A stretch of 64,000 nucleotides of DNA from Victivallis sp. Marseille-Q1083 (GTDB lineage Bacteria > Verrucomicrobiota > Lentisphaeria > Victivallales > Victivallaceae), in the NCBI RefSeq assembly GCF_903645315.1, contig NZ_CAHJXL010000002.1, positions 608,934 to 672,933 of the forward strand, in the 5' to 3' direction. Below are positions 31,074 to 61,670 of the stretch, in pieces. The notes under the pieces were generated by a model. It had not been told where the DNA came from, ran no database searches, and saw nothing but the letters and a program-made list of their open reading frames with translations. The translations under genes were made by a program, and so were the position numbers. The stretch's first letter is position 1. Each line of letters starts with the position of its first letter.

Positions 31074-32675
31074 ATGAAAATTTGCAGGACGCTGGTCGGT
31101 GTGGGGGCTGCCGGGATGGTGCTTCTGGCCGGCTGCAAATCTTTCGATGAGTATCAGGATGATCGTATCGCCTACGCGGTCAAACACTTCGAACGGGCCC
31201 AGTACAGCAACATCGATTCGGAGAAGGTGTTGACTTTGAACAAGTGCGTCGCCCTTGCGGTCCAAAATAACCTCGACCTGAAGGTGTTCGGGCTCGAAGA
31301 AAATGTGGCGAAAGAAATGCGGACCAGCGAGATGCTCGGGATGCTGCCGGAGCTCAACGTCTCCAACAACCTCACCGGCCGCACCAACACGCCGGCCTCA
31401 AGCAGCCAGCAACTGCACGGCGAAGGCTCCGGCACGTACAGTTATTCGCAGAGCCAGGCCCGCAACGTCAACTATCTCAATGTGGATCTGGCGCTCAGTG
31501 TGCTGGATTTCGGGCTGGCGTTTTTCAACACCCAGCAGGCGAATGACCGGATGCTGCTGCGGCAGCAGATTCCCCGCCGCGCCGAACAGAATCTGGTGCT
31601 CGATACCGTGCGTGTCTATTTTCAGGTTGCCGCCGCCCAGCGGGCGATCGACATAACCACTAGGCTGCTTGAGGATTGCAAAGATCGCTACGAACTGATC
31701 GAGCAGATGGGTGAATCGGGGCAGATCTCGCCGTTCCGCGCCTTTGACGAGGTACGTCAATTCATCGATATGGAAAAACGGCTTACGAATTACATCCGCA
31801 GTTACGACAATTCCTGCGTCGAGCTGCGTTCGTTGCTCGGGCTCTATCCGAACACCCGGATCAAGGTCGATGATTCAATTCTCGACCAGGTGCCGGAATT
31901 CACTTTACCGGAAATGGAATTGATGGAGCAGATCGCGCTGATGAAGCGGCCGGAGCTGTATGAAATCGACATGCAGAAGCATATCAACGTTCTTGAATGC
32001 CGCAAGACCATTGCGATGATGTTCCCGAATGTGCGGATGTTCGTGGATTTCACCAATTCGGACAACAGTTTTCTGTATCATTCCGCCTGGTGGGAACTCG
32101 GTATCCGCGCCGCTTATAATCTGTTGAGGCTGCCGCAGCAGATTTCCCGTTACCAGGCTTACAGTGCGCAGGTCGACGCGGAAGAGGCGAGGAGCTATGC
32201 GCAGGCGATAGGAGTGATCGCGCAGGTGCGTATCGCCCACGCGGATCTGGTTTCGGTCAAGGAGCGTTACAACATCGACGTGCGGGTCAATGCGGCCTAT
32301 CGGAAGAATCTGGCGAAGGCCGAGGCCAGCGATGAAATTTCCGGCGAACTCTCGCAGTTGGAACTTGCGCACATGCGTCTGGCCACCACCGAAACCGAGA
32401 TCGAAAAATATCTGTCGCTCGGCAACTATTACGTCTCTTATTTCCGGTTGTTGAATACGCTCGGAATAGAGGATCTGCATGCGGCGACGGTGGAAGGGCT
32501 GAAAAATCAGTTGGACGAAGAACGTATCCGCGCCGAAGCCGAGTTGGAAGAGGCCAGGGCGGAATATGAGTCCGAACAGGCCAATGTGGAAGCCGATTCC
32601 GAACAGGCGGAAATAACCGAAGCGGAAGAGCAGCTCGACGTTGCGGTTTCTCCTCCGACTGAGCCTGCCAGATAA
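31074..32675 (+). CDS. TolC-family outer membrane lipoprotein
   Basis: This 533-residue outer membrane factor belongs to the TolC/OEP type, which forms a trimeric channel across the outer membrane and periplasm. A lipobox LLAGC (Cys near residue 22) gives a lipidated N terminus. The two internal repeats expected of the family are visible: helices beginning LTLNKCVALAVQNNLDL with QVAAAQRAIDITTRLLEDCKDRYELI, and MEQIALMKRPELYEIDMQ with HADLVSVKERYNIDVRVNAAYRKNL. The C terminus is an unusual acidic, Glu-rich tail of about 50 residues. It is first in the operon, 11 bases before the giant exoprotein gene, which points to a dedicated channel. Confidence 0.88.
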   Translation: MKICRTLVGVGAAGMVLLAGCKSFDEYQDDRIAYAVKHFERAQYSNIDSEKVLTLNKCVALAVQNNLDLKVFGLEENVAKEMRTSEMLGMLPELNVSNNLTGRTNTPASSSQQLHGEGSGTYSYSQSQARNVNYLNVDLALSVLDFGLAFFNTQQANDRMLLRQQIPRRAEQNLVLDTVRVYFQVAAAQRAIDITTRLLEDCKDRYELIEQMGESGQISPFRAFDEVRQFIDMEKRLTNYIRSYDNSCVELRSLLGLYPNTRIKVDDSILDQVPEFTLPEMELMEQIALMKRPELYEIDMQKHINVLECRKTIAMMFPNVRMFVDFTNSDNSFLYHSAWWELGIRAAYNLLRLPQQISRYQAYSAQVDAEEARSYAQAIGVIAQVRIAHADLVSVKERYNIDVRVNAAYRKNLAKAEASDEISGELSQLELAHMRLATTETEIEKYLSLGNYYVSYFRLLNTLGIEDLHAATVEGLKNQLDEERIRAEAELEEARAEYESEQANVEADSEQAEITEAEEQLDVAVSPPTEPAR

Positions 32676-32686
32676 CGAGGTGTTTC

Positions 32687-35600
32687 ATGAAAAGTGAATT
32701 TGATCTGTTTCGGTTGGAAGACCGGGTATTGTTCGAAGCGGCGGCGGCGGTGGAAATCGTCGAAGCGGCGGAAGCAGCGCACGACGATCCGAACGCCAAT
32801 GTGAACCAGGGTGAAAAACAGGCGCAGGACGACCGGGACGCGTTGAAGAACGCGCCGCCGGAGAATCCGGCGGATCAGGCGCTTCACCATGACGCCGGCG
32901 ACGCGCCGGACGATCCGGCGCACAACGCCGATGTGGATGCGCTGGTCGATAAAATCATCAACGGCGACCTGCCGGTGATCGACGATGCGGCGCTCGATCA
33001 CGGCGTTGACCACGGCGTCGGCCCGGTTATCGACCATGGTGTCGGCCCGGCGCTCGACGATCTGCTGCATCCCGCCCCGGTCGATGGCGACCATCTGGTG
33101 CTGAACGACCACGGCGAATCCGTCTCGACCGGCAAGGAACTGGTGGTCATCAACTCTTCGGTCATGGACGCCGATGCGATTCTCGGCGAACTTGCGCCGA
33201 ACCAGGAGGTGCTGCACCTCGATTCCGGCTCCGACGCGATGGACCAGATTCTCGACTATCTGAACTCCTCCGATACGCATTACGACGCGATTCACATCGT
33301 TTCGCACGGCAATGACGGCTACTTCGTGCTGAATGGCGAGGTGGTTGACGGCGATCACTTCGATGCCGCCGAATGGGCCGCGGTCGGCGAACACCTGACC
33401 GACCACGGCGATATTATGATTTACGGCTGCGACCTGGCGAAGAGTGACGCCGGGCAGCACCTCGTCGACATGATCGCCGACGCCACCGGCGCGGACGTGG
33501 CGGCGAGCACCGACGCCACCGGACTGGGCGGCGACTGGGACCTCGAATTCCATCATGGCGTGATTGAAACCGCCAGCATTAGCGTATCCGGTTACGAATA
33601 CCAACTGCACAACATTCAGGTGACCAGCGGCCTGAACGACGGCGTCGGCTCCCTGCGCGACGCGATCGGTCAATCCCATTCCGGCGATGAAATCACCTTT
33701 GCCGACTCCGTTGGCAAGGTTACCCTGACTTCGGACATCTCGATCGACAAAGACCTGACCATCAGCGGGGACCGATTGAGTTACACCGTATTGGAGGGCA
33801 ACGGCACCGACGATATTTTACGGATCGACGGTTGCACCACTACGGTGACGCTGGAGAATTTGGCGTTTCACAACGGCGGCGACGGCGCGATTTGGAATAA
33901 CGCAACGCTGAACATCACGCATTGCCTCTTCAGCGGCGATTCCGGCGACACCGGCGGCGCGATTCACAATCAGGTTGTGGTGAACATCAAAGATTCCGTT
34001 TTTACCGACAACTCCGCCACCTCTGGCGGCGCCATCGGCAATTCCGGAATATTGAATATCACAGGGACCACCTTCAGCGGCAATTCCGCCTCGGAATGCG
34101 GCGGCGCGATTTACAATACGGCGGGGAACAATGGCGGAACCGTCAGCAATTTCGGGACTCTCATACTGGTGAATTCCACGGTTTACGGCAACCGGGCGGA
34201 GGGTAACGGCGGCGGTATCTATTCCGGCTCCAATAGCGGAAAGGTGGCCGTGGTGAACTCCACGCTGGCGGGAAATTCGGCCCAGAAAGCGGACAGCGGA
34301 GGCGGCATCTATATGGATCCGGGTTATAATAATGCCAATCTCGAAGTGATCAACAGCATCGTCGTCGGCAATTATACCGGGGACGATCCCACCGCCGCGA
34401 ACGATATCGGGGGGGAAGCCGCCAAGTTCTCCCGCTCTTTCCTCGTATACGGCGTCATTACCATGACGTCCAGCATCTCGGACGGCGAAAGCAATATCGC
34501 GTCCGACGTCGATAAAACCTTTCATGCCAAATGGGACAAGGACAACACCTCCGGAAAGTGGGAGCTGGTCGACCGGAATGACGAAATGCCGATCTTCCAG
34601 GACGGAATGGTAAAAATTTATGCCGACAGCGTTGGCGCGATCGAGGGCACGCTGGTCGGCTGGAAGAAAAATTCGGGCCCGGCGGATTTCAACAAACTCT
34701 GGGAAGGCAATTTTTACTACCGCTCGAGTTGGAGCATCGACTCCGGTAGCTGGGTCTCTATGGACGGCGGCGGCAACATCGACTTCATTACGACGGTGGG
34801 AGCGGTCAATTTCGGGCTCGGCGACAACGCCGTGGCGCTGATGTTCGCTGCCGGGCAGAACGGTATCTCCCGGACTGACGTTTCCAGCTACAACATCGGC
34901 GCTTACGCCTTGCAGGCCCATAAGCCCGATATCGTGGTGAACACCAACCTGGACTCCGCCTCCGATCATACCAATCCGTTCGACGACGTGACCACCCTGC
35001 GGGACGCGATTCAATACGCCGGGCGCGCCTCGTGGTTTGTTCTCGATAAAGACAACCAGATAACGGAAGTGTTTATGCCGGGCAATGAGGTCAGGTTCGA
35101 CAAGGCTTTCTTCACGACTGATCCAAACCACAAGAAAACCATCGTTCTGGACCGCAAAATCCAGATTCTCCGGGAAGACCACATCCGGATCGCCGGAGTG
35201 GATCAGGACGGCAACGACCTGGTCGACGCGAACGGTGAGTCGTACATCGTCATCGACGGCGGCGGCATAAACCGGATCTTCGAGATCGGCAACGGGAACC
35301 GCGCGACGGATGTGGCCATGTACAATCTGATCCTGCAGAACGGCCATGCCAATGGCGTCGGCATGACCAAGGGCGGAGCAGTCTTCAACTGGTTCAACAG
35401 CAAGGTGGACATCGACCGGGTAATCTCCCGGGACAACGAAGCCCAGACTGGCGGCGCGATTTACAATGCCGGAACGCTGAGCGTTACGAATTCCATCTTC
35501 AGCGGCAATAGCGGCGACAACGGTGGCGCGATTTACAATGCCGGAACGCTGACTGCGGAAAACATCAACTTCAATACCAACCTGGCAGCCCGTGACGGCG

Positions 35601-36238
35601 GCGCGATTTACAATACGTCGGCAGGTACGTTGACTATCAATAGCGCCACCTTTTCCAAAAACACAGTCATGGGAAGCGGCGGCGCGATTTTTAACGACGC
35701 CGGCCGGGTGACCGTGGCGAATTCGACATTTTACGATCAGAAGAGCGCCGGCGACGGCGGCGCGATTTACAACAACAAAGGCCGGCTTACGGTGGTGGGT
35801 TCCACCTTTTACCACAATACCGCCGGCATAGGCGTCCGGAGCGAAGGCGGCGCGATTTTCAGTAACGGCGCCGCCAGCAGGCTGGTGCTGGTCAATTCCA
35901 TCCTCGTCGGCAACATCGCCGACGTGGCCGCCGCCAACGACCTGTCGACGCAGAATGCCGAACTCGACCTCTACTATTCCTTTTACGGGCAGCTGTCGGG
36001 AAATATCGGCAAGGGCGTCGCTTCCTGGGGGAAGATCAAAGTGAAGGATGTGTTCGGCGATTCTCCTAGTCCGGCCGAGAAAGAAATCAACGGCGTGAAG
36101 CAGATTTATTTCGAGCTGAAAGACGGGGTGGATGCCGTCACGATGGGTACGAAAGTACAGGTGGACGGCGGCGGTTTTCTGCAGTATTACTACATGGATG
36201 GCCCGTTCAAATGGGAAACCCTCGGCGCGATGCGCTGA
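32687..36238 (+). CDS. giant exoprotein, N-terminal part (LEPR-like tag, DUF4347, Pmp-type repeats)
   Basis: This 1183-residue segment opens a roughly 4000-residue exoprotein. No classical signal peptide is seen; instead the N terminus reads FRLEDRVLFEAAAA, like the LEPR-type motif found on very large PVC-group exoproteins. Asp/His-rich sequence follows, then a DUF4347 domain (about residues 150-305) with His207 in IVSHGNDG and Cys248 in IYGCDLAK. The rest is parallel beta-helix sequence with repeated GGAIYNAGTL and FxxN motifs, as in chlamydial Pmp proteins, and a SLRDAI / TLRDAI variant of the CSLREA motif. The frame ends early because of a one-base deletion near 36229; the same repeat elsewhere reads IGAVALTT across this point. 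Confidence 0.85.
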   Translation: MKSEFDLFRLEDRVLFEAAAAVEIVEAAEAAHDDPNANVNQGEKQAQDDRDALKNAPPENPADQALHHDAGDAPDDPAHNADVDALVDKIINGDLPVIDDAALDHGVDHGVGPVIDHGVGPALDDLLHPAPVDGDHLVLNDHGESVSTGKELVVINSSVMDADAILGELAPNQEVLHLDSGSDAMDQILDYLNSSDTHYDAIHIVSHGNDGYFVLNGEVVDGDHFDAAEWAAVGEHLTDHGDIMIYGCDLAKSDAGQHLVDMIADATGADVAASTDATGLGGDWDLEFHHGVIETASISVSGYEYQLHNIQVTSGLNDGVGSLRDAIGQSHSGDEITFADSVGKVTLTSDISIDKDLTISGDRLSYTVLEGNGTDDILRIDGCTTTVTLENLAFHNGGDGAIWNNATLNITHCLFSGDSGDTGGAIHNQVVVNIKDSVFTDNSATSGGAIGNSGILNITGTTFSGNSASECGGAIYNTAGNNGGTVSNFGTLILVNSTVYGNRAEGNGGGIYSGSNSGKVAVVNSTLAGNSAQKADSGGGIYMDPGYNNANLEVINSIVVGNYTGDDPTAANDIGGEAAKFSRSFLVYGVITMTSSISDGESNIASDVDKTFHAKWDKDNTSGKWELVDRNDEMPIFQDGMVKIYADSVGAIEGTLVGWKKNSGPADFNKLWEGNFYYRSSWSIDSGSWVSMDGGGNIDFITTVGAVNFGLGDNAVALMFAAGQNGISRTDVSSYNIGAYALQAHKPDIVVNTNLDSASDHTNPFDDVTTLRDAIQYAGRASWFVLDKDNQITEVFMPGNEVRFDKAFFTTDPNHKKTIVLDRKIQILREDHIRIAGVDQDGNDLVDANGESYIVIDGGGINRIFEIGNGNRATDVAMYNLILQNGHANGVGMTKGGAVFNWFNSKVDIDRVISRDNEAQTGGAIYNAGTLSVTNSIFSGNSGDNGGAIYNAGTLTAENINFNTNLAARDGGAIYNTSAGTLTINSATFSKNTVMGSGGAIFNDAGRVTVANSTFYDQKSAGDGGAIYNNKGRLTVVGSTFYHNTAGIGVRSEGGAIFSNGAASRLVLVNSILVGNIADVAAANDLSTQNAELDLYYSFYGQLSGNIGKGVASWGKIKVKDVFGDSPSPAEKEINGVKQIYFELKDGVDAVTMGTKVQVDGGGFLQYYYMDGPFKWETLGAMR

Positions 36239-39200
36239 CCACGGCGCAGCTCCAGCACGACCAGATCGGCAGATCGCGGCAGCTCCATGATTCGTCCGAA
36301 GAGTACAGCGTCGGCGCGATTTCCATGATCCGGGAAGACGCGTCGCTCACCGTCGATACCGTCCTGGATGTGTTGGACCCCTACGACGGCGTAATCAGCC
36401 TCCGCGAAGCGCTGGCTTATGCCGCGGCGGGAATCACGGAGACGGACGGCACTTTCACGGTCACTTTCGCAAATTCGCTCGGTTCGAACATCGTCATCAC
36501 GCTCGACCCCGCGCTCAAAGCCCTGACCGTCGATTCGGCGTTGTTTACGAAAGATGCCCCGCTGACCATTGACGGTGAAGGGCGGGTCACCCTTGATGGC
36601 GGTCATACGGACAGTTCCGGCGGTAGCCAGCTCCTGAATATCGCCGCCGGCAATTTTGTTTTCCTCAACAATATGACCTTTCGGAACGGTTATGCCGGCG
36701 GTGACGGCGGCGCCATCACCAATACCGGGACGCTGAATATTAAAAATGTCAACTTCAACCATAACACGGCAGTTGGCAACGGCGGCGCGATTTACAGTGA
36801 GGCGAGAAGCAGTCTGACCATAAATACCGCCACTTTCCGCGAGAACAGTGGGGGCTCCGGCGGCGCGATTTACAATGCCGGGACGCTGACTGTGGCGAAT
36901 TCGACATTTTTCGGGAATGAGGCTGTTGTCAATGGTGGGGCGATTTACAGCGGCAATGCCTCGCTGCTGGTGGTGGGAACCACCATTTACGATAATACCG
37001 CCAACAAGGGCGGAGGGGTTTACAGCCCCGGCATCGTAATAGCGGTGAATTCCATTTTCGTCGGCAACCGCGACAGCGTTAAGGGCGATTTCTATGTGGG
37101 TCAGGCTGACCTTTACTATTCCTTTTATGGCGGGCTGTCAGGGAAAACCGGTACGGCCACCGGTTCCCGGGGAAATATCAAAGCGTCGGATGTTTTCGGC
37201 GACTCTCCAACTCCGGCCGGGAAAGTAATCAACGGCGTAACGCAGAACTATTTCGAGTTGAAGGATGAGGCGGTGATCGGCATGGCGGGTACGAAAGTAC
37301 AGGTGGACGGCAACGGTTTTCTGCAGTATTACGACATGACGGATCCGGGCAACCGCCGGTGGTACACCATCGGCGCGGTCGCGCTGACCACGGTGCAGCT
37401 TCAGGGCGACCAGATTGGGCGGTACCGTTTGACGGCGGATTCGTTTTTCAAGTACAGCCCCGGCGCGGTCCAGCAGCAGCTGTCGCTCACCGTCACCACC
37501 GATCTGGATGTGGTGAACCCCAATGACGGCCTGATCAGCTTGCGCGAAGCGCTGGCCCATGCCGCGATGGGATTCACGGCGGCGGACGGCAGTTACACGA
37601 TCACTTTCGCGGATTCGCTCGGCTCGGAGATCACCATTACGCTCGACGGCACGCTCGGAGCATTGAGCATCGATTCGCCGCAGTTTAAGACGGCTCCCTT
37701 GACCATTGAGGGCGGCGGGCGGGTCGCTCTCGACGGTGGCGGAGCTACCCATATTCTGGAAATCGCCGCCGACAATCGCGTTTCCCTCAACGGCATGACC
37801 TTTCAAAACGGTCGTAGCGGCGGCGATGGCGGCGCGATTTATAACGCCGGTACTCTGAGCGTGACCGGCGCCGCGTTCACCGGGAATATGGCGGACGGCG
37901 GTGGCGGCGGGGCGGTTTACAACACCGGGTCGCTGGTGATCGCGAACGCCTCCTTTACCGGAAATTTGGCCGGCGTCGGCGGGGCGATTTACAGCAACGG
38001 GCTGCTGACGGTGGTGAATTCCACCTTTTACGGAAATGGGGCGAACGACGACGGCGGCGCGATCTACTTCAACGGCGACACGAAGTTCGAGCTGACGGTG
38101 GCCGGTTCCACCCTGACCGGGAACATCGCTAATGGCGGCGGCGGCGGAATCTTCGTCCGGAGCGGGGCGATAACCCTGGTCAATGACATCATTGTCGACA
38201 ATCTTTCCCCGGCTGACGGGAAAGATATCCATAGCAATGGCGACATCACCGCCATCGGTTTAGTTTACGGCACCGCGGTCGGTTCCTTCGTGACCGAATG
38301 GCACTCTTATTCCAATGTTCAGGCCAGCCAGATTTTCACCACCAAAACACCTTCGATCCGGGTGGTCGACGGGATCACCCAGAGCTATTTCGAGGTCAAG
38401 AATACGCCGGATGTCAAGGTCACCAGCGCGGGAACGAAATTGCAGGTGGACGAAAACAGCGGCAATTTGCAGTATTACGATATCGAAAATTCGAGCTGGG
38501 TGAACCTCGGCGCGGTCACGCTGACCACGGAGCTGGTGCAGCACGACCAGATCGGCCGGGCGCGGATGATGTACGATTCCTCCTCGGAGTATGGCATCGG
38601 CGCGATCTCCATGCACCGGGAAACGCCGTCGCTCACGGTCAACACCGATCTGGACCTCGTGGACCCCTACGACGGCCGGATCAGCCTGCGCGAAGCGCTG
38701 GCCTACGCCGCGGCGGGGACCCGGGCGTTCGACGGCAGTTATACGGTTGACTTCGCGAATTTGTTCAGCGGAACCATCATTATGCTCGATCCCGCGCTCG
38801 GAGCATTGACGGTGAAAGCCGGGAGCTTTGCGGCGGATGACCCGCTGATCATCAACGGCAACGGCGAAGTCACCATCGTTGGCAGCGGGTTGACGCAGCT
38901 CTTCGTCATCGGGCGGGACAATGAGGTCCGGATGAACGTCTTTACTTTGTCGGAGGGGTTCGCCGAGGACGGCGGCGCGATCTACAACGCGGGCAGCCTG
39001 ACGATGAACCGTGTGACGTTCAACTCCAATTCCGCTGATAACGGTGGCGCGATTTACAATGCCGGGACGCTGACGATCACCAATTCCACCTTCAGCAATA
39101 ACGCGGCCGGCATCGCCGGCGGCGCGGTTTACAATGCCGGGACGCTGACGGTGGAAAACGCCGATTTCAACGCCAATACGACCCAACAGAACGGCGGGGG

Positions 39201-42200: not shown

Positions 42201-43782
42201 AGTTAATAAGGTTGTTACCTTAGGTACGCTCACCCTTGGCGGCACTGATGCCAGGAACTATGTGCTCGCCGGCGCTGGCCAGCAGACCACGACGATCGCG
42301 ACGATTACGGCGCGTGCAATTACGGTCAGCGGCATCGCGGCAGACGACCGTACTTACGACGGCACCACCGCCGCCACACTCGATTACACCAACGCGGTGC
42401 TGACCGGTAAGCTGGCCGGCGATACCCTGAGCGCCAGCACGACCGGCATTTTCGCCGATAAGAATGTTGGGGTCGACAAGGTAGTCACCTTAGGTACGCT
42501 CACTCTGAATGGCACCGATGCCAGGAACTACGTTCTCGCCGGCACTGGTCAGCAGACCACGACGACCGCGACGATTACGGCGCGTGCGATTACGGTCAGC
42601 GGCATCGCAGCAGACGACCGCGTCTACGACGGAACCACCGCTGCCACACTCGACTACACGAATGCGATGCTGACCGGCAAAGTCGCCGGCGATACCCTGA
42701 GCGTCAGCACCACCGGCACTTTCGCCGACAAAAACGTTGGAGCCGACAAGGTTGTCACGTTGGGCACTCTCACTCTGAATGGCACCGATGCCAGGAACTA
42801 TGTGCTGGCCGGCGCTGGCCAACAGACGACGACAACCGCGACGATTACGGCGCGTGCAATTACGGTCAGCGGCATCGCGGCCGACGACCGCGTCTACGAC
42901 GGCACCACTGATGCGACGCTCGATTACACCAATGCGGTGCTGACCGGCAAAGTTGCCGGCGATACCCTGAGCGTCAGCACCACCGGTAGTTTCGCCGATA
43001 AGAATGTTGGAGTCGACAAGGTAGTCACGCTGGGCACGCTCACCCTTAGCGGCACCGATGCCAATAACTACGTGTTTGCCGGTACCGGTCAACAGACCAC
43101 GACGACCGCAACAATCACAGCGTGTGCGATTACGGTCAGCGGCATCGCGGCAGACGACCGCGTCTACGACGGCACCACCGCCGCAACACTCGATTACACC
43201 AACGCGATGTTGTCCGGCAAGTTGGCCGGCGATACCTTGAGCGTCAGCACAACCGGCACTTTCGCCGATAAGAATGTTGGGGTCGACAAGGTTGTCACGT
43301 TGGGCACTCTCACTCTGAATGGCACCGATGCCAGGAACTACGTTCTCGCCGTCACCGGTCAGCAGACCACGACCACCGCAACGATTACGGCGCGTGCGAT
43401 TACGGTCAGCGGCATCGCGGCAGACGACCGCGTCTACGATGGCACGACCGCCGCGACGCTCGATTACACCAATGCGGTGTTGGCCGGTAAGGTCATCGGC
43501 GATACCCTGAGCGTCAGCGCCACCGGCGTTTTCGCCGATAAAAACGCCGGAGTTGGAAAAACCGTCAATTTAGGTGCTTTGACCCTTAGCGGCGCCGACG
43601 TGGGCAACTACATTCTTGCCGGTACCGGTCAGCAGACCTCAACGACCGCAACGATCACGCCGCGGGACATTACGGTGACGGCGGATGAGCAAAAAAAAAT
43701 TGGGGGAACCGCCGATCCGGAATTGACTTACCAGCTCACCGAAGGCAGTCTGGTCGATGGCGACGGTTTTCCGGCGAACTGA
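36211..43782 (+). CDS. giant exoprotein, central part (CSLREA/Pmp-type blocks and six YDG repeats)
   Basis: This is the continuation of the same protein in the next frame (2523 residues; the first codons are an artefact of the frameshift). Five blocks of about 1.1-1.3 kb each begin with a variant of SLTVTTDLDxVxPxDG and ISLREALA, run through many GGAIYNAGTLTV plus FxxN beta-helix turns, and close with a variant of YFELKD and DQIGRxR. From about 42046 come six YDG domains (VYDGTTAATLDYTNAVL), then the start of an MBG-type domain. This looks like a filamentous surface adhesin or matrix protein. The frame stops in GDGFPAN because one T is missing near 43769. Confidence 0.85.
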   Translation: MGNPRRDALTTAQLQHDQIGRSRQLHDSSEEYSVGAISMIREDASLTVDTVLDVLDPYDGVISLREALAYAAAGITETDGTFTVTFANSLGSNIVITLDPALKALTVDSALFTKDAPLTIDGEGRVTLDGGHTDSSGGSQLLNIAAGNFVFLNNMTFRNGYAGGDGGAITNTGTLNIKNVNFNHNTAVGNGGAIYSEARSSLTINTATFRENSGGSGGAIYNAGTLTVANSTFFGNEAVVNGGAIYSGNASLLVVGTTIYDNTANKGGGVYSPGIVIAVNSIFVGNRDSVKGDFYVGQADLYYSFYGGLSGKTGTATGSRGNIKASDVFGDSPTPAGKVINGVTQNYFELKDEAVIGMAGTKVQVDGNGFLQYYDMTDPGNRRWYTIGAVALTTVQLQGDQIGRYRLTADSFFKYSPGAVQQQLSLTVTTDLDVVNPNDGLISLREALAHAAMGFTAADGSYTITFADSLGSEITITLDGTLGALSIDSPQFKTAPLTIEGGGRVALDGGGATHILEIAADNRVSLNGMTFQNGRSGGDGGAIYNAGTLSVTGAAFTGNMADGGGGGAVYNTGSLVIANASFTGNLAGVGGAIYSNGLLTVVNSTFYGNGANDDGGAIYFNGDTKFELTVAGSTLTGNIANGGGGGIFVRSGAITLVNDIIVDNLSPADGKDIHSNGDITAIGLVYGTAVGSFVTEWHSYSNVQASQIFTTKTPSIRVVDGITQSYFEVKNTPDVKVTSAGTKLQVDENSGNLQYYDIENSSWVNLGAVTLTTELVQHDQIGRARMMYDSSSEYGIGAISMHRETPSLTVNTDLDLVDPYDGRISLREALAYAAAGTRAFDGSYTVDFANLFSGTIIMLDPALGALTVKAGSFAADDPLIINGNGEVTIVGSGLTQLFVIGRDNEVRMNVFTLSEGFAEDGGAIYNAGSLTMNRVTFNSNSADNGGAIYNAGTLTITNSTFSNNAAGIAGGAVYNAGTLTVENADFNANTTQQNGGGIFNAAECSLTVNGATFRHNIAENFGGAIYNAGTLTVANATLFENSADRDGGAIYNTGTLTVVGATFFKNEAGGNGGAVYSIGKLRLANSILAGNTGGEDLYADGVAEGYYSFIGSMQGAFTRNVANHFNVTPEEIFGDRPAVSTTKINGVTQSYFELKDSAPAVTAGTKLRVVGGNLQYYDMTAIYRWADIGAVALSTAQLQYDQIGRARLTRDLLAAYSIGAISMLKENPSLIVTTDQDVVNPYDDVISLREALAFAAAGIRAADHTYTITFADSLAGSAIEIDGKLASLTVAAGAFTILNPLTIDGGGRITIDGGRSSTRVCPLEIGADNYVFLNGLIFEDGGNAKGLGGAIINAGNLTVTNTTFTGNGISGQRGGGAIYNTGNLVIDNAAFIGNQSSEGGGGAIYNTGSLVVNNATFSRNLADTNRGNSGGGAIWNSNGQVVVANTTFTGNRTNGKGGAIYAENGTLVVLNSTITQNNGKKDGSGIYCDSAELAIANSIILGNTGSTNIKVDGNNGFSAVYLVTSETPQKTPDYSDHNFFDCQDDPFTDGNPRKRTVNGVEQLYFEVKDVSVVETTTDGTKLRSYYGKNGCDIEYYSKDSSNWQTLINYLKSVPTDEQFSYDQIGRDRLMYDRSQTYSIGAVNMLREQPSLTVTTDLDLVDPCDGRISLREAALYYAHSGDTVTFAGKIAAVLDHDLELKFDLNLNFGDTGASVSSGRDGIALKSEFALIVQGAAAFNHLLLSGKGDLSFTGSTDGSATVDRTGGGVIYSSADSQVVYGGTYFDLLLTGTGADGAEVKEFGGDIAVANSFDASGTANGQYLQINGNHYQLTLPKIGIVIRYTDIHDLTAAESLVLDDTNTIAGTTNIAVYLNTLFDSGKSITYGQTLSDAGSFQLSAYARGILLGGDWSFLNGTTRPQVKDSDVTSYEIILGGYYSKATLTITPKQITVSGIAADNRVYDGTTDATLDYTNAVLTGKLAGDTLSVSTTGTFADKNVGVNKVVTLGTLTLGGTDARNYVLAGAGQQTTTIATITARAITVSGIAADDRTYDGTTAATLDYTNAVLTGKLAGDTLSASTTGIFADKNVGVDKVVTLGTLTLNGTDARNYVLAGTGQQTTTTATITARAITVSGIAADDRVYDGTTAATLDYTNAMLTGKVAGDTLSVSTTGTFADKNVGADKVVTLGTLTLNGTDARNYVLAGAGQQTTTTATITARAITVSGIAADDRVYDGTTDATLDYTNAVLTGKVAGDTLSVSTTGSFADKNVGVDKVVTLGTLTLSGTDANNYVFAGTGQQTTTTATITACAITVSGIAADDRVYDGTTAATLDYTNAMLSGKLAGDTLSVSTTGTFADKNVGVDKVVTLGTLTLNGTDARNYVLAVTGQQTTTTATITARAITVSGIAADDRVYDGTTAATLDYTNAVLAGKVIGDTLSVSATGVFADKNAGVGKTVNLGALTLSGADVGNYILAGTGQQTSTTATITPRDITVTADEQKKIGGTADPELTYQLTEGSLVDGDGFPAN
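42061..43680 (+). repeat. six tandem 270-base YDG-domain repeats
   Basis: The repeat period is exactly 270 bases (90 residues): GGCATCGC begins units at 42061, 42331, 42601, 42871, 43141 and 43411. Units 1-5 are very similar at the DNA level, while the sixth has diverged, the gradient expected from recent internal duplication. Confidence 0.95.
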
Positions 43783-43886
43783 CGCGCGACGCCGGTGAAA
43801 AGGCCGGCGATTACGCGATCCGGCAGGGAACGCTGACGGCCGGCGGCAACTACAACTTAACCTATGTTGGGGCCAACCTGACCATT

Positions 43887-44699
43887 GTGGCGAAGCCGGT
43901 TTTTGACTCGGGTATCTATTCTTCCGGGTTGAATCCGAATTTTGCCTCCGCGCTGATCACCGACAGCGTCCGGGCGGAGCTGAAGAACTTGCTGACCTCG
44001 TTCGCGGGCGACAATTTCAAGCTGCTGGGAATCAACAGCCTCCCCGCCGCGCTTTCATTTTACGATTACTTGAGTGATATCGGTGACGGCATCGAATGGA
44101 ACAACATTAATTTTACCGATTTTGCCCACGATGCGACGATCCAGCGGCTCTTTGGACAGGTGACGGACTACCTCGGGCTGGATCGCAATCAAGCGACTTG
44201 GTCACCGAGGCTGATCTACGCGTTGAATCATTTGAAAGCGGACGTTGAAGACCTGCTGGGAATCAACAGCTCTGCGGAATTGTACGAGAACGGCAATATT
44301 TCCTACGGGCCGGACTATTCGTTCAGAAGCCCGGTGGTCCATACGATGGGCTTCGGGACCTTCATCGGTGTGAGAAACTTCAGTCCTTACCGCACTCCTA
44401 TCGATGATGTTCCGGGAATTGCAAACTCGGATACTCTGCTTCCGAACATGGCGCTGAACGGTGCGTCCGGACCGGCGGAAGATGTGATCAGCATCCCGGG
44501 CGCAGAGAACACCGGCTTCCGGTATCTCGCGCCGGAGATGCCGCCGATCAAGCCGGGGCGGAACGCCCAGTTAGCGGATGCGGAGCTTCAAAAACTGTTA
44601 CGTGATTTCGGTCCGGTTCGTGGCGATGCGCTGTTGGAAAAGAGCCGCGCCTTCAAGAGCGAATTTGAACTCCTGTTGGACGAGCTGGTGACCGCATGA
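43887..44699 (+). CDS. giant exoprotein, C-terminal part
   Basis: This is the third frame of the exoprotein. Reading is open back to about 43770 and completes the MBG-type domain (GELTRDAGEKAGDYAIRQG then NYNLTYVGANLTI), so the GTG at 43887 is not a natural start. The remaining 260 residues have no recognised domain. They are moderately hydrophilic with helical ends (RAELKNLLTSF, LLEKSRAFKSEFELLLDELV). There is no autotransporter barrel, RTX nonapeptide block or cell-wall sorting motif. If the export machine recognises a C-terminal signal, it would be in this part. The stop overlaps the HlyD gene start by four bases. Confidence 0.75.
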   Translation: MAKPVFDSGIYSSGLNPNFASALITDSVRAELKNLLTSFAGDNFKLLGINSLPAALSFYDYLSDIGDGIEWNNINFTDFAHDATIQRLFGQVTDYLGLDRNQATWSPRLIYALNHLKADVEDLLGINSSAELYENGNISYGPDYSFRSPVVHTMGFGTFIGVRNFSPYRTPIDDVPGIANSDTLLPNMALNGASGPAEDVISIPGAENTGFRYLAPEMPPIKPGRNAQLADAELQKLLRDFGPVRGDALLEKSRAFKSEFELLLDELVTA

Positions 44700-45412
44700 A
44701 GAAACTCGGCGTTATAGGCGGATTGTTCGCTGTGCTGTTGCTCGGAGCAGCAGAGCATCCGGTGGTGAAAGCGGTGCTGTTCCCGTTCCGCGAGGCGGTG
44801 ATCGCCGCGCGGGTCGATTCGGCGTTGGAGCCGTACCGGTTCAAGCTCGGCGAACCGTTCAAGGCGGGCGACACGCTGGTGACGCTCGACACTTCACGAT
44901 ATGCGATCGAGGAAAAACGAGCGCATGATCAGTTCGATTTCGCCAAAGCGAACTACGAGGACAAGAAACTGCTGCGGGCGAAAAACTTCACCAGCGATTT
45001 CGAACTGAAAAAGTCCGAGTACGATTTTCGTCAGGCGGAGAACGCGCTCGCCGATGCGCAGTTGAACGTTTCGTTTTGCACGGTAAAAGCGCCGTTTGCC
45101 GGCAAAATCGTCGAGTTTCTGACCCGCGAATACGAGACCATCCGCCCGGGGCAGCCGCTGTTCCGGATCATCGACGACAACCAGTTGCTGGCGGTGATGA
45201 ATGTGCCGATGGACGACAAGGCGCTCTGTACGGTCGGGAATTCCGTCACCATCGCCATAACAGGGGAAAACCTGACCGCGTCCGGACGGATTTATGAGGT
45301 AACGCCGCAGGCTGATCATCGCACCGGGACGGTGCGCATCCGGGTGTTGATCGACAATGCCGCCGGTCAGTTCAAGGCCGGCATGACCGGAGAGTTGATT
45401 TATGGCCAATGA
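44696..45412 (+). CDS. HlyD-type periplasmic adaptor
   Basis: This is a 238-residue membrane-fusion protein. An N-terminal hydrophobic segment (VIGGLFAVLLLGAAE) anchors or exports it. A split lipoyl domain (FKLGEPFKAGDTLVTLDTSRY and VKAPFAGKIVEFL) flanks a short coiled-coil hairpin (about residues 65-118), and a beta-barrel part follows (RIIDDNQLLAVMNVP, TGTVRIRVLIDN). Such adaptors bridge an inner-membrane pump and a TolC channel. It begins in the exoprotein stop (ATGA), and its own stop overlaps the next gene by 11 bases. Confidence 0.88.
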   Translation: MKKLGVIGGLFAVLLLGAAEHPVVKAVLFPFREAVIAARVDSALEPYRFKLGEPFKAGDTLVTLDTSRYAIEEKRAHDQFDFAKANYEDKKLLRAKNFTSDFELKKSEYDFRQAENALADAQLNVSFCTVKAPFAGKIVEFLTREYETIRPGQPLFRIIDDNQLLAVMNVPMDDKALCTVGNSVTIAITGENLTASGRIYEVTPQADHRTGTVRIRVLIDNAAGQFKAGMTGELIYGQ

Positions 45413-46742
45413 GGAGTTTGCCGCCCGGCTGAAGGCCTTCGCGTTGATGCTGAAATATGGTCATGACCTGTTCGGCGCGAAAAATTTCAGCGACGCGGCG
45501 GCGATGGCGGTCAGCAACAGCCGTTCGCTGTTGAATTTTCGTACCGCGACACTGCTGGAACTCTCCGGCGGTAAATCGCGGGTGATCGCGCAGTACGGCC
45601 AAGTGGAAGTCAATCCGCACTCCCGGCTGGCGGTTTTGCAGAACAAATTGGCGGAAACGTTGAAATTCGGGAACGAACCGCTGACCGTGAGCAGGGATAA
45701 CGGCCTTTCCACTGAGCTGGCCGAACATGACGCGGTTTATTTATGCCTCAAACTAACGCCGCCGCCGAATGCGGCCGAAATTGATTTCGTTTTCATCTGG
45801 CTGCTGGAATATGAAAAAGAGGTTCCGGGTTTTGCCGCTAACACGGCGAAATTGCTGGGCAGCTCCATTTCCGAGGCGCTCTACTATCAGCGCCTTTGCA
45901 AAAGCCGTCTGACCGGGGTGAGACGGCAGGTAAAAAAACGATGGATGTGGGCGGCGGCGCTGATGATTCTCGCCGGGGCGATGTTCATCCGGGTGCCGGA
46001 AAACGCCACCGCGGAATTTACGCTGAAAGCGCCGGAAATCACCAGCTCTTATGCCTGGTTCGACGGCCCGATCGCCAGATGCCTGGTTCAGGACGGCGAT
46101 ACGGTGACCAAAGGCGAGCTCATCGCCGAATACGACACCGCGCAGTTGAGCTACCGCCTCTCCAGCGCCCGCAGCGCGCTGCGGGAGATCGAAACTGAGC
46201 TTGCCCTGGAACAGCAGAACGCGTTTACCGATCAGGACCGCCTCGGCAAAGTAAAGCTCCTCGAGGCCCGGCGCGACACGGTGAAAGTATCGGTTGAAGA
46301 GGCCGAATGGTATCTGGAGCATTCGCAACTTCCGGCGCCGGCGGACGGTATTCTGGCTTTGACCGACGGGCGTGCCGAATTGCTGGCCGGCAAAGCGGTC
46401 CGTACCGGCGACAAGCTCTTTGAGGTATTCGGTGGCTCCGGCATGGTTGCCGAGATTCCGGTCAACGAACGCGACGCCTCGATTTTGCGCCGGCAATTTG
46501 ACGCGACTTTGTTTTTACATACGGCACCTGAGACGGCGATTCCGGTGGAAATTCTGGAGGTTTCGCACTATCCGGAGCTGACCGAACAGAAGACCTACTG
46601 CTATCGGGTCCGGGCGAAACTGCCGGACGGCCTGACCGGCCTGCGCTATGGTATGCGCGGCATCGCCAAGCTCTCCGGCGGCAAGGTTTCGCTCGGTTAC
46701 CGGTTGTTCAAGAGTGTCGTTCTTTACTTCCGGGGATTGTGA
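45402..46742 (+). CDS. GAF-like domain plus HlyD-type adaptor
   Basis: This is a 446-residue protein with a cytoplasmic GAF-like region (about residues 15-165: FSDAAAMAVSNSRSLLNFRTATLLEL, then YLCLKL and FVFIWLLE). A single membrane helix lies at about 181-196 (WMWAAALMILAGAMFI). The periplasmic HlyD part has lipoyl halves (CLVQDGDTVTKGELIAEYD; LPAPADGILALTDGRAELLAG) around a helical hairpin. Such GAF-HlyD proteins are found with M50-type membrane partners in other bacteria. A regulatory input through GAF is possible but unproven. Its stop is one base before the next ATG. Confidence 0.85.
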   Translation: MANEEFAARLKAFALMLKYGHDLFGAKNFSDAAAMAVSNSRSLLNFRTATLLELSGGKSRVIAQYGQVEVNPHSRLAVLQNKLAETLKFGNEPLTVSRDNGLSTELAEHDAVYLCLKLTPPPNAAEIDFVFIWLLEYEKEVPGFAANTAKLLGSSISEALYYQRLCKSRLTGVRRQVKKRWMWAAALMILAGAMFIRVPENATAEFTLKAPEITSSYAWFDGPIARCLVQDGDTVTKGELIAEYDTAQLSYRLSSARSALREIETELALEQQNAFTDQDRLGKVKLLEARRDTVKVSVEEAEWYLEHSQLPAPADGILALTDGRAELLAGKAVRTGDKLFEVFGGSGMVAEIPVNERDASILRRQFDATLFLHTAPETAIPVEILEVSHYPELTEQKTYCYRVRAKLPDGLTGLRYGMRGIAKLSGGKVSLGYRLFKSVVLYFRGL

Positions 46743-46743
46743 C

Positions 46744-48816
46744 ATGGCCGCAACCGAACCCGAACTGCTGACCGGTATTTTGCGGACGGACGTCGAGGTG
46801 ATCCGCGGCGACCCTCCACTGCTTTTCGACCGCCAGGCGGACACTTATTACAAGATCTCTCCCACGCTGCTCGATGTTCTGGCTTTCCTGAACGAATCGG
46901 AGCCGGTTTCGGTGTTTCTGGAAAAACTCAACCGCAACGGCATTCCGGTAACGCGGGAAGAGCTGATGCGGCTGCTGGCTTTTCTGCAGCAGAACAATCT
47001 GTTGGCTCCGGAATACGGACACATCGGCGTCAAACGCGAAAGACAGGCAGAAATGCGGGAAAAAACGGCGTTTCTGCGCTTCTCCGCCGCATATCTCTTT
47101 TTCAAATTCCCGCCTTGGCGGCCGGAACGGTTCTTTGACAAAATCAGCCCGTATGTCAGTTGGCTCGCTTCCCGGCCGGTCATCCTGCTGCTGCTGGTTC
47201 CCGCGCTGCTCGGCTATCTGCTGCTGATTCGTGATTTCGGCGCGGTACGGGCCACCTTTTTAGATTCGCTCTCGTGGGCCGGGTTGGCCAAATATTTTGT
47301 CGCGATTCTGTTCCTGAAATTCATCCATGAGGCGGCGCATTCGCTGGCCGCGATCCACTTTCACTGCCGGGTGCGCGGCATCGGGCTTGGCTTCATGGTC
47401 TTTTATCCGCGGCTCTACACCGATACTACCGACAGTTGGCGGCTGCCGCGCCGGCAGCGGCTGCTGATCGATTCGGCGGGCATCATCATCGAGCTGCTGC
47501 TCGGCGGTTGTGCGGCGCTGCTCTGGACCTACCTGCCACCCGGCGCGTGGAAGTCGACGATGTTCTACGTTTTCGCCGTGAGTTTGATCTCGACGCTGTT
47601 CGTCAACGGCAACCCCTGCATTCGTTACGACGGCTATTATATCCTCTGCGACCTGGTCAACATTGAAAATCTGATGACCCGGTCGGGTGAATATGTCAAA
47701 CAGTTCTGGCGCTGGTATTTTCTGCGCCTGGGCTCCAAGCCCGACCACCCGCGCGGTGCATTTCTGCTTTGTTTCGGCGTCTGTTCGTTCATCTACCGCA
47801 TTTTTCTTTATACCTCGATCATTCTGGTGATCTATCACAAATTCGTCAAGGCGGTGGCCATCGTAATGATGATTCTTGAACTGTACAGCATTCTGATCTA
47901 TCCGTGCTGGCGGGAGATTCAGACGGTGAGGGCGCTGTCAAAACGCTCAGCCAACCGGGCGCGCCGATTTCTCGGCGGCGGGCTGCTGGTGGTTCTGGCG
48001 GCGATCCTGTTTTTGCCGCTGTCGTGGAACATCACCTTGCCGGGAGAGACCGTTCCGGCGGAACGGCTGCTGGTAACGGTGCCGGAGGGTGGCTATCTGA
48101 CTGGCGATCTGCCGCGCCGAGCGCGTCCGGTACGTGAGGAAGAGATGCTGTTCCGGCTCGAATCGCCGCAGTTGGACAGCGCAATCCGACGCCTGGTCGG
48201 AACCTTAAAATACGATGAAACGCTCTATGCGCTTCAGCAGCTCGATGAGAATAAGTTTTCCGAAAGCCGGGTGACGGCCGAAAAGATCGCTTCCGATCGT
48301 CTGAGTCTGGCCGAATTGCTCCGGCGCCGACACAGCCTAACCGCCCGCGCCGGCACGGCCGGTATCTTCGTGTCGGAATTACCGGATTTGTCGGCCGGAG
48401 CGTTTCTGGCGAAGGGCAGGAAAATCGGTGAAATCGTTTCGCAGGAGCCGTTGCTTTACGTCTACGCCCAAGACCGGGATCTCGGCAAATTGAAAGTCGG
48501 AGACGTCGCTGTCGTGACGTTCCGGGATACCCTGGCCTCCTGGCCAGCGGAAGTCACGGCAGTTGATCAGATATCGACCCGGTTGGAAAATTCGCCGCTG
48601 CTTCAGCATTTCGGCGGCCCCATTCCGGTCTATTTTGAAGCGGAAAAAAGCAATTCGTATACGTCGGTACTCGCCTTGTACCGCGTGACGCTGCGATTTA
48701 CCGGCCAACCGGATATCGACTGCGGCCGGGTGGCGACTGTCAAGATTTCACATCGGGAACGACTATGGAGCCGTCTGAAGCAAACTGCACTTTCGATTGT
48801 TCATCGGGAGTTTTGA
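46744..48816 (+). CDS. PqqD-like, M50-type membrane protein with HlyD-like C terminus
   Basis: This is a 690-residue integral membrane protein. Residues about 1-100 resemble a PqqD-type peptide-binding winged helix (YYKISPTLLDVLAFLNE). The membrane core has the M50 zinc motif His195-Glu-Ala-Ala-His199 (KFIHEAAHSLAA) and the third-ligand block GNPCIRYDGYYILCD about 95 residues later. The C-terminal 230 residues are periplasmic with HlyD-like lipoyl and barrel features (GIFVSELPDLSAGAFLAKG; VGDVAVVTF). It may process or translocate the exoprotein; no ABC ATPase is encoded in the operon. An in-frame ATG at 46648 lies inside the previous gene and is less likely. Confidence 0.85.
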   Translation: MAATEPELLTGILRTDVEVIRGDPPLLFDRQADTYYKISPTLLDVLAFLNESEPVSVFLEKLNRNGIPVTREELMRLLAFLQQNNLLAPEYGHIGVKRERQAEMREKTAFLRFSAAYLFFKFPPWRPERFFDKISPYVSWLASRPVILLLLVPALLGYLLLIRDFGAVRATFLDSLSWAGLAKYFVAILFLKFIHEAAHSLAAIHFHCRVRGIGLGFMVFYPRLYTDTTDSWRLPRRQRLLIDSAGIIIELLLGGCAALLWTYLPPGAWKSTMFYVFAVSLISTLFVNGNPCIRYDGYYILCDLVNIENLMTRSGEYVKQFWRWYFLRLGSKPDHPRGAFLLCFGVCSFIYRIFLYTSIILVIYHKFVKAVAIVMMILELYSILIYPCWREIQTVRALSKRSANRARRFLGGGLLVVLAAILFLPLSWNITLPGETVPAERLLVTVPEGGYLTGDLPRRARPVREEEMLFRLESPQLDSAIRRLVGTLKYDETLYALQQLDENKFSESRVTAEKIASDRLSLAELLRRRHSLTARAGTAGIFVSELPDLSAGAFLAKGRKIGEIVSQEPLLYVYAQDRDLGKLKVGDVAVVTFRDTLASWPAEVTAVDQISTRLENSPLLQHFGGPIPVYFEAEKSNSYTSVLALYRVTLRFTGQPDIDCGRVATVKISHRERLWSRLKQTALSIVHREF

Positions 48817-49592: not shown

Positions 49593-50427
49593 GGTTGTGT
49601 CGTCAATAGATGTGTGCTATATTATGCAAACGTCAAACTATAGGTGATGAAAAATGGCGAATGCATACGAACGGCACGACATATCGGATGAGTCTTGGGC
49701 AAAAATAGAGTTGTCGTTACCGGGGCGCAAGGGAACCTGGGGAGGCAATGCGCGAGACAATCGGCAATTTGTGAATGCGGTATTTTGGATATTGCGAACG
49801 GGCGCCCCTTGGCGTGATTTGCCGTCGAGCTACGGAGATTGGAAGAATACTCATAAGCGTTTTTGCCGTTGGCGCGACAAAGGGGTCTGGGAACGTCTGC
49901 TGGAACAGCTGATTGACAATCCTGAATTTGAACTGCTGATGATTGACGCAAGTCATGTAAAAGTTCATCCACATAGAAGCGGCGCTCGCGGCGGCAATCA
50001 GGACATGGGCAAGACAAAAGGGGGCTCAACACCAAGATACATCTGGCCGTGGATGCGCATGGTATGCCGGTCAGAATCCTTATTACAAAAGGTACCGCAG
50101 CGGATTGTGGGCAGGCTGAAAAATTGATTGATGGAATTGAAGCTGGAGCTCTTTTGGCGGACCGCGGATACGATTCCGACGCGATAGTTGAGAAAGCGGA
50201 AAAGTCCGGAATGAAAGCGGTCATTCCGCCAAGAAAAAACCGCAAGGTTCAGCGTGAATACGATAAGGAACTGTATAAGTTGCGCCACTGGGGCGAAAAC
50301 GCATTTCTGGTGCTGAAACGGTGGCGCGGAATTGCGACGCGATATGCCAAAAACACGGCATCGTTTCTGGCCGCAGTTCAAATCAGGTGCATTGCTGCTT
50401 TGATATGAAACTATTGGCGACACTGTC
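49593..50427 (+). mobile_element. IS5-family (IS427-group type) insertion sequence
   Basis: An 835-base element with imperfect ends (GGTTGTGTCGTCAATAG left; GACAGTGTCGCCAATAG right, inverted). It is flanked by the two-base duplication TA at 49591-49592 and 50428-50429. It sits between the RHS remnant and the 3' end of lamin-tail gene F. Confidence 0.88.
49654..50408 (+). CDS. IS5-type DDE transposase, two overlapping frames
   Basis: The first frame (49654-50127) carries the N-terminal helix-turn-helix region, WILRTGAPWRDLP and the first Asp in LLMIDASHVKVH. The second (in the -1 frame, to 50408) continues with GLNTKIHLAVDAHGMPVR, the second Asp in LADRGYDSD and the Glu in HWGENAFLVLKRWRGIATRY. 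An AAAAGGGGG run at 50016-50024 marks the switch, as expected for -1 frameshifting in the IS427 group, so the element may still be active. Confidence 0.88.
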
Positions 50428-50582
50428 TAGCTATTATTTACTGACATCACGAATGTACAAATCAAATACCTCCGACCACTTGCCGACTTCGTCCCCGCTC
50501 TCCGTACGAATCCGCCAATAATAATCACCGGGAGATAATTCCAAGCGAAACTGACGTTCCTGTCCTCGATATTCGTGTAATA

Positions 50583-51694: not shown

Positions 51695-52086
51695 TAACTC
51701 ATGAAAATCCGCACTAGAAGAAATTTGAACATAGTAATTGCCATCTTCTGTTATATGACCATCCCAGTTGAACAAGGCAAAAAATTTGCTCTCTTTTTGC
51801 CAATTCAAAAAAATTCGAACTTCCTTCATTAACTCCCGTAACCGCGGAACAACCAATGGATTCTCCCGCCCCAATGAAGTTTCCTCCGGCAGATAGACAA
51901 ACCAAGATAAAAGCGGCTGGGAAAGTGAACGAAAATCATGATCATACTTCAATTTTCGATTTAGAATAATACCAATACTTCTACCGGGTACATTTCCATC
52001 AGAAAATATTGTTTGAACTAAATGTTTCTGACGAAGAAAATTCTGTTTTGCCTCTTTCAGCTTATTGCTTGCAACAGCTTCTCTTA

Positions 52087-55620: not shown

Positions 55621-56320
55621 TTAACAGATAGAGGACGGGGAATTGGATTAGTCTCCCCGATACTCTGATCTTCTTCCGAAGTCATATACCAATTTGAATA
55701 TTCCCCAGTTTTCCGGTTACGATAACGCGCCAGATTACCGCCGACAAAGTATCCATGAAAGAGCATATTGAAACAATAAGGCTCTGGGGTATCGCTATTT
55801 TTGGCAATCCAACAGACCTGATCGATCAACTCCCCCGGCTGCCGGTCGGTACTCGAAGGCGAATATAACCGACAACTTTGTTCCGTCCAATTTCGAAACG
55901 CCTTCTCATAACCGTCCTGGGTACAATAAAGCCACAAGACCGTATCATTACCTTTCTCTTCTTCCGGAAAGCCGAAAACCACTACTGCCAGCCCGTTCCC
56001 GGTTATCACCGACGATGCCGGAAATTCGTAGGTGAAGTCGTTTTGATCTACCAGAAGGTAACCGGCCAGATCAACAGGGGCGGAAGAAGTATTTTCCAAT
56101 TCAATTATCACCGGACGTTCTCCTCGCGGAAAGAAGACAACTTCGCTCAGATGAATATCACCCGCTGAGGCATAAAAAATCGTCGGCAACCAAATAGCGG
56201 TCAGCAATTTTACGAAGAACGGCTGTCTTATTATCATATTTCTCCCTTTCCCGGCATGATCTGCCGCCCGGGAATTCCCCGAACGGCTAAGACAATGAAT
56301 TATCGATTGTTTTTTATATA

Positions 56321-57052: not shown

Positions 57053-57082
57053 GACTTCACTCTTTCTTTGATAAGTCTTCTA

Positions 57083-61666: not shown

Positions 61667-61670
61667 AATT

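Follow-up and report, generated by a model that had tools for sequence, protein, structure and literature searches.

The operon at positions 31074..48816 of a 64,000-nt stretch of DNA from Victivallis sp. Marseille-Q1083 (host genome of 4.82 Mb in 5 contigs; the whole stretch is called the window below) raises the question of how a giant exoprotein could leave the cell when the HlyD- and TolC-type proteins encoded around it are accompanied by no ATP-binding cassette (ABC) ATPase. The five-gene operon, which encodes a TolC-type lipoprotein, a DUF4347 exoprotein, an HlyD adaptor, a GAF-type HlyD adaptor and an M50-HlyD fusion protein, is real. We consider it fairly probable that it constitutes a dedicated exporter together with its own substrate, and that it represents one clade of a widespread secretion machine that departs from standard type I secretion and uses an N-terminal leader. 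Gene content, linkage, co-occurrence, a motif that tracks the M50 genes and invariant catalytic residues are the observations behind this reading.

The operon and its M50 fusion protein

The operon comprises the following features (window coordinates).

31074..32675, + strand: TolC/OEP-type outer-membrane lipoprotein (P0001); OEP PF02321, 1.1e-19; lipobox LAGC
32687..36238, + strand: exoprotein frame 1 (P0002), with leader-like N-terminal motif, DUF4347 and PMP repeats; ends at a frame break
32714..32734, + strand: LEDRVLF, the conserved LExRx[LM][FL] motif, exoprotein residues 10-16
33140..33577, + strand: DUF4347 domain, residues 152-297; PF14252, 1e-38
36211..43782, + strand: exoprotein frame 2 (P0003), with PMP repeats and six YDG stretches toward its C-terminal end; YDG PF18657, 2.2e-102; Chlam_PMP, 1.5e-22
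43887..44699, + strand: exoprotein frame 3 (P0004), the C-terminal region; no match in Pfam or NCBIfam; frame break near 43.77 kb
44696..45412, + strand: HlyD1 (P0005), RND-type periplasmic adaptor with N-terminal leader; HlyD_D23, 4.8e-17; RND_mfp above cut-off
45402..46742, + strand: GAF-type HlyD adaptor (P0006), with N-terminal region, single hydrophobic stretch and HlyD C-terminus; HlyD_3, 6.8e-8; GAF label taken from relatives
46744..48816, + strand: PqqD-like + M50 + HlyD fusion (P0007); Peptidase_M50, 4.8e-7; the mechanical open reading frame (ORF) starts at 46648
46783..47043, + strand: PqqD-like N-terminal domain of the M50 protein, resembling a RiPP recognition element (RRE; RiPP, ribosomally synthesized and post-translationally modified peptide); limits approximate, from a PDB profile search
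47326..47340, + strand: HEAAH zinc motif of the M50 core; H, E and H invariant in 62 of 62 aligned proteins
47605..47640, + strand: NGNPCIRYDGYY, second metal-ligand motif of the M50 protein; N288 and D296 invariant in 62 of 62

The exoprotein starts 11 bases past the TolC stop, HlyD1 overlaps the exoprotein stop, the GAF-type HlyD overlaps HlyD1, and the likely start of the M50 gene is the ATG at 46744, one base past the preceding stop. The row of five closely spaced genes described in a sequence-only reading of this DNA is borne out, with a one-base gap before M50, but the single frame of roughly 4000 residues that it gave to the exoprotein is not: the protein is spread over three ORFs, with breaks near 36.23 kb and 43.77 kb that both fall within repeats. 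In a close relative (G006, L043), the exoprotein is a single open frame of 2500 residues. The breaks may be sequencing errors or real.

The M50 residues H195, E196, H199, D227, N288 and D296 are invariant in all 62 aligned proteins, each of which carries the HExxH and second Asp motif of an M50 intramembrane metalloprotease; because of this invariance, selection probably acts on the protease site. The fusion's C-terminal half matches the MacA, EmrA and HlyD adaptors in the PDB. TfuB1 and PqqD bind leader peptides in RiPP pathways. Searched against the PDB, a profile of 25 M50 N-terminal regions found TfuB1 as its best but weak match (0.0054), with designed TIM barrels (0.02-0.03) ranking between it and PqqD (0.059), and Pfam PqqD was recognized in 6 of the 25 N-termini and in 5 of the 62 relatives in the aligned M50 set. 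The window's M50 protein itself has no Pfam PqqD match and its second HlyD (P0006) no Pfam GAF match, GAF being found in 18 of 55 aligned relatives; the PqqD and GAF labels of the sequence-only reading rest on relatives. Its suggestion that a PqqD-like domain binds the exoprotein N-terminus is favoured indirectly, through the conserved N-terminal motif of the substrates and the weak TfuB1 match.

Giant exoproteins, their N-terminal motif and two M50 clades

Among named records, the M50 protein matches two Lentisphaerae/Lentisphaeria metagenome assemblies. The Victivallis genome encodes three M50 homologues and three DUF4347 exoproteins (four matches, two within one protein), and every exoprotein has its DUF4347 no more than 14 kb from one M50 gene. 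Because the three pair one-to-one, the association is more than chance would give. Counts across genomes come from a single draw of 288 genomes of the window's phylum, analysed with fixed thresholds; the best candidates were scored in each genome (M50 3, ABC 8, type I HlyD 5, SecA-like 4, HlyB model 36), and absence means absence at that depth. M50 was found in 58 of these genomes (E<=1e-20), DUF4347 in 41 and both in 34 (p 8e-22, a value that, like the other p values given here, overstates the case because related genomes are not independent). In G011, we observed four DUF4347 exoproteins (C15 (L140), C18, C22 and C23), one of them in a 16,206-residue frame, and a single M50 match on another contig; four exoproteins against one M50 match suggest that one exporter may serve several substrates.

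We clustered the ORFs around M50 genes in 60 fetched loci, the three loci of the Victivallis genome and four plasmid loci. In a quick tree, 63 M50 proteins fall into clade I (38 rows), to which the window belongs, and clade II (25 rows). Thirty-four clade I rows come from the window's order, and the others from Azospirillum, Magnetospirillum, Phyllobacterium and an E. coli plasmid. M50, GAF-HlyD and HlyD1 stand together in 31/38 clade I-type and 18/25 clade II-type loci of the phylum, and TolC was found in 20/38 and 16/25 of the fetched loci, respectively, several of which are truncated at a contig end or at the 20-kb limit.

The clades differ in a short SecA-like ATPase gene, which directly follows M50 in 19/25 clade II rows and in 0/38 clade I rows. 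All 19 proteins carry SecA_DEAD, P-loop_SecA and SecA_PP_bind, with no other SecA Pfam domain reported. The SecA-like search of the 288 genomes was bimodal, with 22 places in 20 genomes scoring at least 650 bits and the other matches listed reaching at most 436, and 19 of the 20 genomes have M50 (p 7e-14). Nineteen of the 22 copies adjoin M50, those of G083 and G217 are on other contigs than M50, and the last is on a 3.4-kb contig of G180, which has no M50 match. The Victivallis genome has no secondary SecA-like copy; its one SecA match at E<=1e-100 belongs to the ordinary score class (2.4e-121). Five clade II loci, L099 and L100 (G042, G054), L091, L092 and L095, lack a SecA-like gene, a GAF-HlyD match and a LEPR/DUF4347 match at E<=1e-3, and in L099 and L100 the M50 gene lies beside an HlyD-like ORF of 722-759 residues. 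These loci possibly represent a third type.

The clade I exoproteins share the motif LExR[IVM]LF, mostly followed by an alanine-rich stretch and lying ~4 to 15 residues from the likely start; the corresponding sequence of the E. coli giant is LESRQLFDGAA. The broader form, LExRx[LM][FL], was tested on proteins picked by DUF4347, a domain further into the protein, and not by the motif itself. The test covered 49 of 53 distinct DUF4347 proteins, with the three of the Victivallis genome left out and G194:C69 not included. The motif was present in frame upstream of DUF4347 in 37 of 42 proteins from genomes with M50, compared with one of six from genomes without it (p 8e-4; one of seven if an M50-negative protein with an open 5' end, which was dropped, is kept). 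The motif was defined with 15 of the 42 already in view; among the unseen proteins the counts were 22/27 and 1/6 (p 0.005). The three Victivallis exoproteins, outside these counts, carry the motif too. The five misses in M50 genomes include two close variants (LEDRVLY and LEERILC) and one protein with a signal-peptide-like hydrophobic N-terminus. In the same loci, the motif falls within the first 90 residues of 23 of 1325 ORFs of at least 200 residues, true exoproteins included. The DUF4347 protein G093:C57 (L158), from an M50 genome, has a hydrophobic, signal-peptide-like N-terminus and no LExR motif, from which it follows that DUF4347 alone is not the export tag.

A similar but not identical motif is described by the LEPR-XLL model (NF012209), which scores above its cut-off for the N-termini of two clade II giants and does not match the N-terminus of the window exoprotein or the E. 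coli variant. Over the 288 genomes, LEPR-XLL was detected in 23 at E<=0.01 and in 19 at E<=1e-3, with a SecA-like gene in 18 either way. At E<=1e-3, a cut set after the list was viewed, 18 of the 20 SecA-like genomes have it (p 2e-25). The longest LEPR-XLL frames run to 20,466, 19,216 and 18,984 residues. First-50-residue hydropathy is at most 1.99 in 22 exoproteins (picked by motif), whereas two leaders of proteins encoded in the window reach 2.36 and 2.62; by hydropathy alone, no signal peptide is evident on the exoprotein, which does not fit Sec-dependent two-step export (type II or type V secretion). From these sequence comparisons, the DUF4347 and LEPR-XLL giants are likely substrates of the M50 exporters.

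Plasmids of E. coli carry a clade I module in which a giant Ig-like protein is joined by TolC, two adaptors and M50-HlyD; no ABC is listed alongside. Of 5426 complete E. coli genomes, 22 have the four transport genes of this module at >=80% coverage and 24 have any match; 4 of the 25 places are chromosomal. In L112, L113, L134 and L135, on E. coli plasmids and, in two strains viewed, the chromosome, the giant Ig-like gene is annotated as one open coding sequence, with insertion-sequence genes close by.

The proposed export motor and competing explanations

The sequence-only reading had found no ABC ATPase in the operon or elsewhere in the window, and this stands: PF00005 has no match in the window (the closest of its 41 genomic matches are ~12 kb ahead of the window and 111 kb beyond it), and a profile built from 12 ABC domains found none among the window ORFs. 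The genome, however, holds two type I ABC + HlyD pairs elsewhere, unlinked to the operon, on C2 at ~927 kb and on C1 at ~2463 kb. Both HlyD partners exceed the TIGR01843 cut-off, and the HlyB model gives the ABC proteins 642 and 677 bits, under its cut-off of 725.55. We also noted that type I ABC proteins of this family, such as those of L103 (8924-11539, minus strand) and L104 (7663-10242, plus strand), begin with ~300 residues that include a C39-like part; they occur in 40 of the 47 members of the window's family in the draw.

Among the 63 fetched loci, a linked type I ABC was found in four (4/38 clade I-type, 0/25 clade II-type) and, with the 12-domain profile, an ABC ATPase of any kind in nine; homologous operons do not always carry one, in line with the sequence-only reading. 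The nine are four loci of one genus (g3), L083 with two ABC domains and an ABC_tran_Xtn linker, L087, L089 and L091 with a stand-alone ATPase (L089 having two more ABC ATPases further away), and L063 with a weaker match. Across the 288 genomes, the ABC N-terminal region with its C39-like part was detected in 60, and type I HlyD (E<=1e-30) in 73. Among the 34 genomes in which M50 and DUF4347 coexist, 18 have that ABC and 14 have neither it nor type I HlyD; in these 14, matches to the HlyB model reach at most 450 bits and start past the C39-like region, whereas four copies in the controls G000 and G197 score 598-677. Eight genomes (G040, G046, G099, G144, G147, G226, G235 and G266) have M50 with DUF4347 or LEPR-XLL and, by these searches, lack such an ABC, type I HlyD and a SecA-like gene.

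We propose that the motif at the extreme N-terminus, LExRx[LM][FL] (LEPR-XLL in the sister clade), would act as the export leader of the exoprotein. The PqqD/RRE-like domain of M50-HlyD would bind this leader at the inner face of the membrane, and the M50 core, whose zinc site is kept, could cut the leader or gate entry. The M50, GAF-type and free HlyD parts could assemble into a conduit across the periplasm, docked to the TolC-type lipoprotein, through which the giant chain would exit in one step. In clade II, the motor is likely to be the dedicated short SecA-like ATPase encoded next to M50; for clade I, with the window, its Lentisphaeria relatives and plasmids of Proteobacteria, we infer that housekeeping SecA would take this role, perhaps with SecYEG. 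A bolder proposal, which we advance tentatively, is that these loci form a separate class of secretion system, in which an LExRxL[FL] leader is read by an RRE on M50, a SecA-type motor (dedicated in clade II, housekeeping in clade I) drives transport, and an HlyD/TolC conduit allows one-step giant export, with a range from Verrucomicrobiota and Proteobacteria to E. coli plasmids.

If one of the unlinked ABC + HlyD pairs were instead the motor, acting in trans, with M50 and GAF-HlyD as accessory proteins for processing or gating, the system would be a variant of type I secretion. The two pairs of the Victivallis genome, which are complete and whose ABC proteins are 61% and 53% identical to the linked ABC of g3, prompted this idea, as did the four g3 genomes (L051, L053, L055 and L056), in which an ABC + HlyD pair lies immediately before the row TolC-exoprotein-HlyD-HlyD-M50. 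Besides the 18 of 34 genomes mentioned above, it can draw on a phylum-wide enrichment, with the ABC in 20/58 M50 genomes and 40/230 others (p 0.006) and type I HlyD in 23/58 and 50/230 (p 0.007). Within the window's family, however, the ABC occurs in 15 of 20 genomes with M50 and in 25 of 27 without it, and because the enrichment is gone at this level, we read it as the joint commonness of both in the window's order and not as linkage. The ABC tree puts the linked g3 copies in one clade with a genome that lacks M50 and leaves the C2 copy of the Victivallis genome outside it; from this tree and the 288-genome profile, the linked ABC appears to be the arrangement of one lineage. The 14 genomes with neither component also speak against an ABC in trans, as does E. 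coli, which among 14 control genomes has no type I HlyD match at 1e-30. The tree and the profile weaken it as a general answer; we retain it as a rival, and think it unlikely.

It is more improbable still that M50 stands outside the conduit as a processing or regulatory protease (for release, leader removal or anti-sigma cleavage), while an unlinked pump and the two free HlyD adaptors perform export. The invariant protease site would suit such a role, HlyD1 obtains its best score as an RND adaptor, and a few loci (L087, L089) have a stand-alone ABC ATPase in the vicinity of the adaptors. Yet M50 itself has an HlyD C-terminus, the same adaptors recur with it (31/38 clade I and 18/25 clade II loci), and, besides the mixed ABC ATPases in 9/63 loci and the SecA-like gene, no further ATPase or pump family appears among the listed clusters, which are mostly unannotated. 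A third alternative concerns the window's locus alone, which could be a decaying copy with real frame breaks and a dead exoprotein, export being left to the other two loci of the genome. The exoprotein is indeed broken twice, and the other loci have intact frames of 3105 and 1854 residues; on the other side, the transport genes are all open, coding is kept on either side of both breaks, and single-base sequencing errors are possible. We judge decay somewhat unlikely, if less so than an ABC in trans.

A dedicated, ABC-independent exporter centred on M50, as the sequence-only reading had it, fits the comparative data and is the reading that we prefer, but the g3 operons, the two unlinked pairs, which could act in trans, and the phylum-wide enrichments count against it, as do several further results. 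At an M50 locus of Phyllobacterium, genes for a type I HlyD and an ABC occur on the opposite strand, at distances of ~3.3 kb and ~4.8 kb, respectively. In clade II, the stand-alone ABC ATPases of L087 (9702-10439, plus strand) and L089 (9726-10373, plus strand) lie ~1 kb before TolC + HlyD1 on the same strand, and may serve these neighbours. By our searches, 12/58 M50 genomes have neither DUF4347 nor LEPR-XLL, and 9/55 genomes with DUF4347 or LEPR-XLL have no M50 match; the overstated p values belong here too. No dedicated motor was found in the fetched clade I loci. The RRE match is weak, with no Pfam PqqD in the window member, and the two frame breaks may leave the window's own exoprotein non-functional. 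A predicted structure of the M50 fusion (pLDDT 35, three-sequence alignment) was discarded.

Beyond 50 kb (window positions 50001-64000), directly after the operon, G+C falls from ~0.55-0.60 to 0.43-0.47, which is possibly an island boundary.

Known systems and meaning

Type I secretion (HlyB-HlyD-TolC, with LapA and SiiE among its giant adhesins) exports giant repeat exoproteins without a signal peptide, as in the window, and RTX repeats are not universal in its substrates. Pfam found no calcium-binding RTX families in the window exoprotein frames. The window shares with type I secretion its HlyD adaptors (HlyD_D23, HlyD_3) and its TolC-type channel (OEP), and differs in having no linked ABC, an adaptor fused to M50 and a conserved motif that is N-terminal. 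LEPR-8K (NF012209) likewise describes an N-terminal motif of giant exoproteins, but the window variant, LEDRVLFEAA, fails the model. The daptide and YydH-LiaK M50 metalloproteases (NF041824, NF058609) resemble the window's PqqD-like + M50 region, which aligns over 349 positions of the daptide_HExxH model; the window protein, however, scores 151 bits, below the curated cut-off of 300, is fused to HlyD, and is linked to a giant protein rather than a small peptide.

The closest precedent is a secondary SecA_DEAD/HlyD/M50/GAF module described by Kamneva, Poudel & Ward (2015; PMC4452313), who saw no ABC in its loci; among the papers listed in the open-access searches, no other presents the module in its title or abstract. 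There, SecA_DEAD was proposed to be the ATPase and M50 the membrane pore, and the broader role of the module was called "completely unknown"; "LEPR" does not occur in the main text. Like that module, which sometimes includes an OEP protein, the window has M50-HlyD, GAF-HlyD and HlyD side by side, an OEP-type protein and no linked ABC, but its operon has no adjoining SecA-like gene and belongs to the sister clade. A secondary SecA is also named in PMC5313232, and passages of PMC12153261, PMC10868602 and PMC12322963 do not describe the machine. The sequence-only reading had likened the layout to clusters around very large exoproteins in PVC and marine bacteria, for which no mechanism is known to be established; it missed both the 2015 description and the SecA-like ATPase of the sister clade. 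Since the module was described in 2015, the machine is not new as a kind. Within the open-access literature searched, there appears to be no earlier account of the SecA-less clade or of the substrate class and the motif at its N-terminus.

To our knowledge, the route by which bacterial proteins of 5,000-20,000 residues are exported is an open question. The link to substrates gives a likely role to a module that was described in 2015 without one. Giant-protein export becomes directly testable, since the data supply a candidate signal on the substrates and a defined machine that nature offers in two versions, one of which has a SecA-like ATPase of its own; the five-gene form on E. coli plasmids makes established laboratory genetics applicable. 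The gene set in the window, together with related sets of which some include a SecA-type motor, points to a way in which the largest bacterial proteins may be exported.

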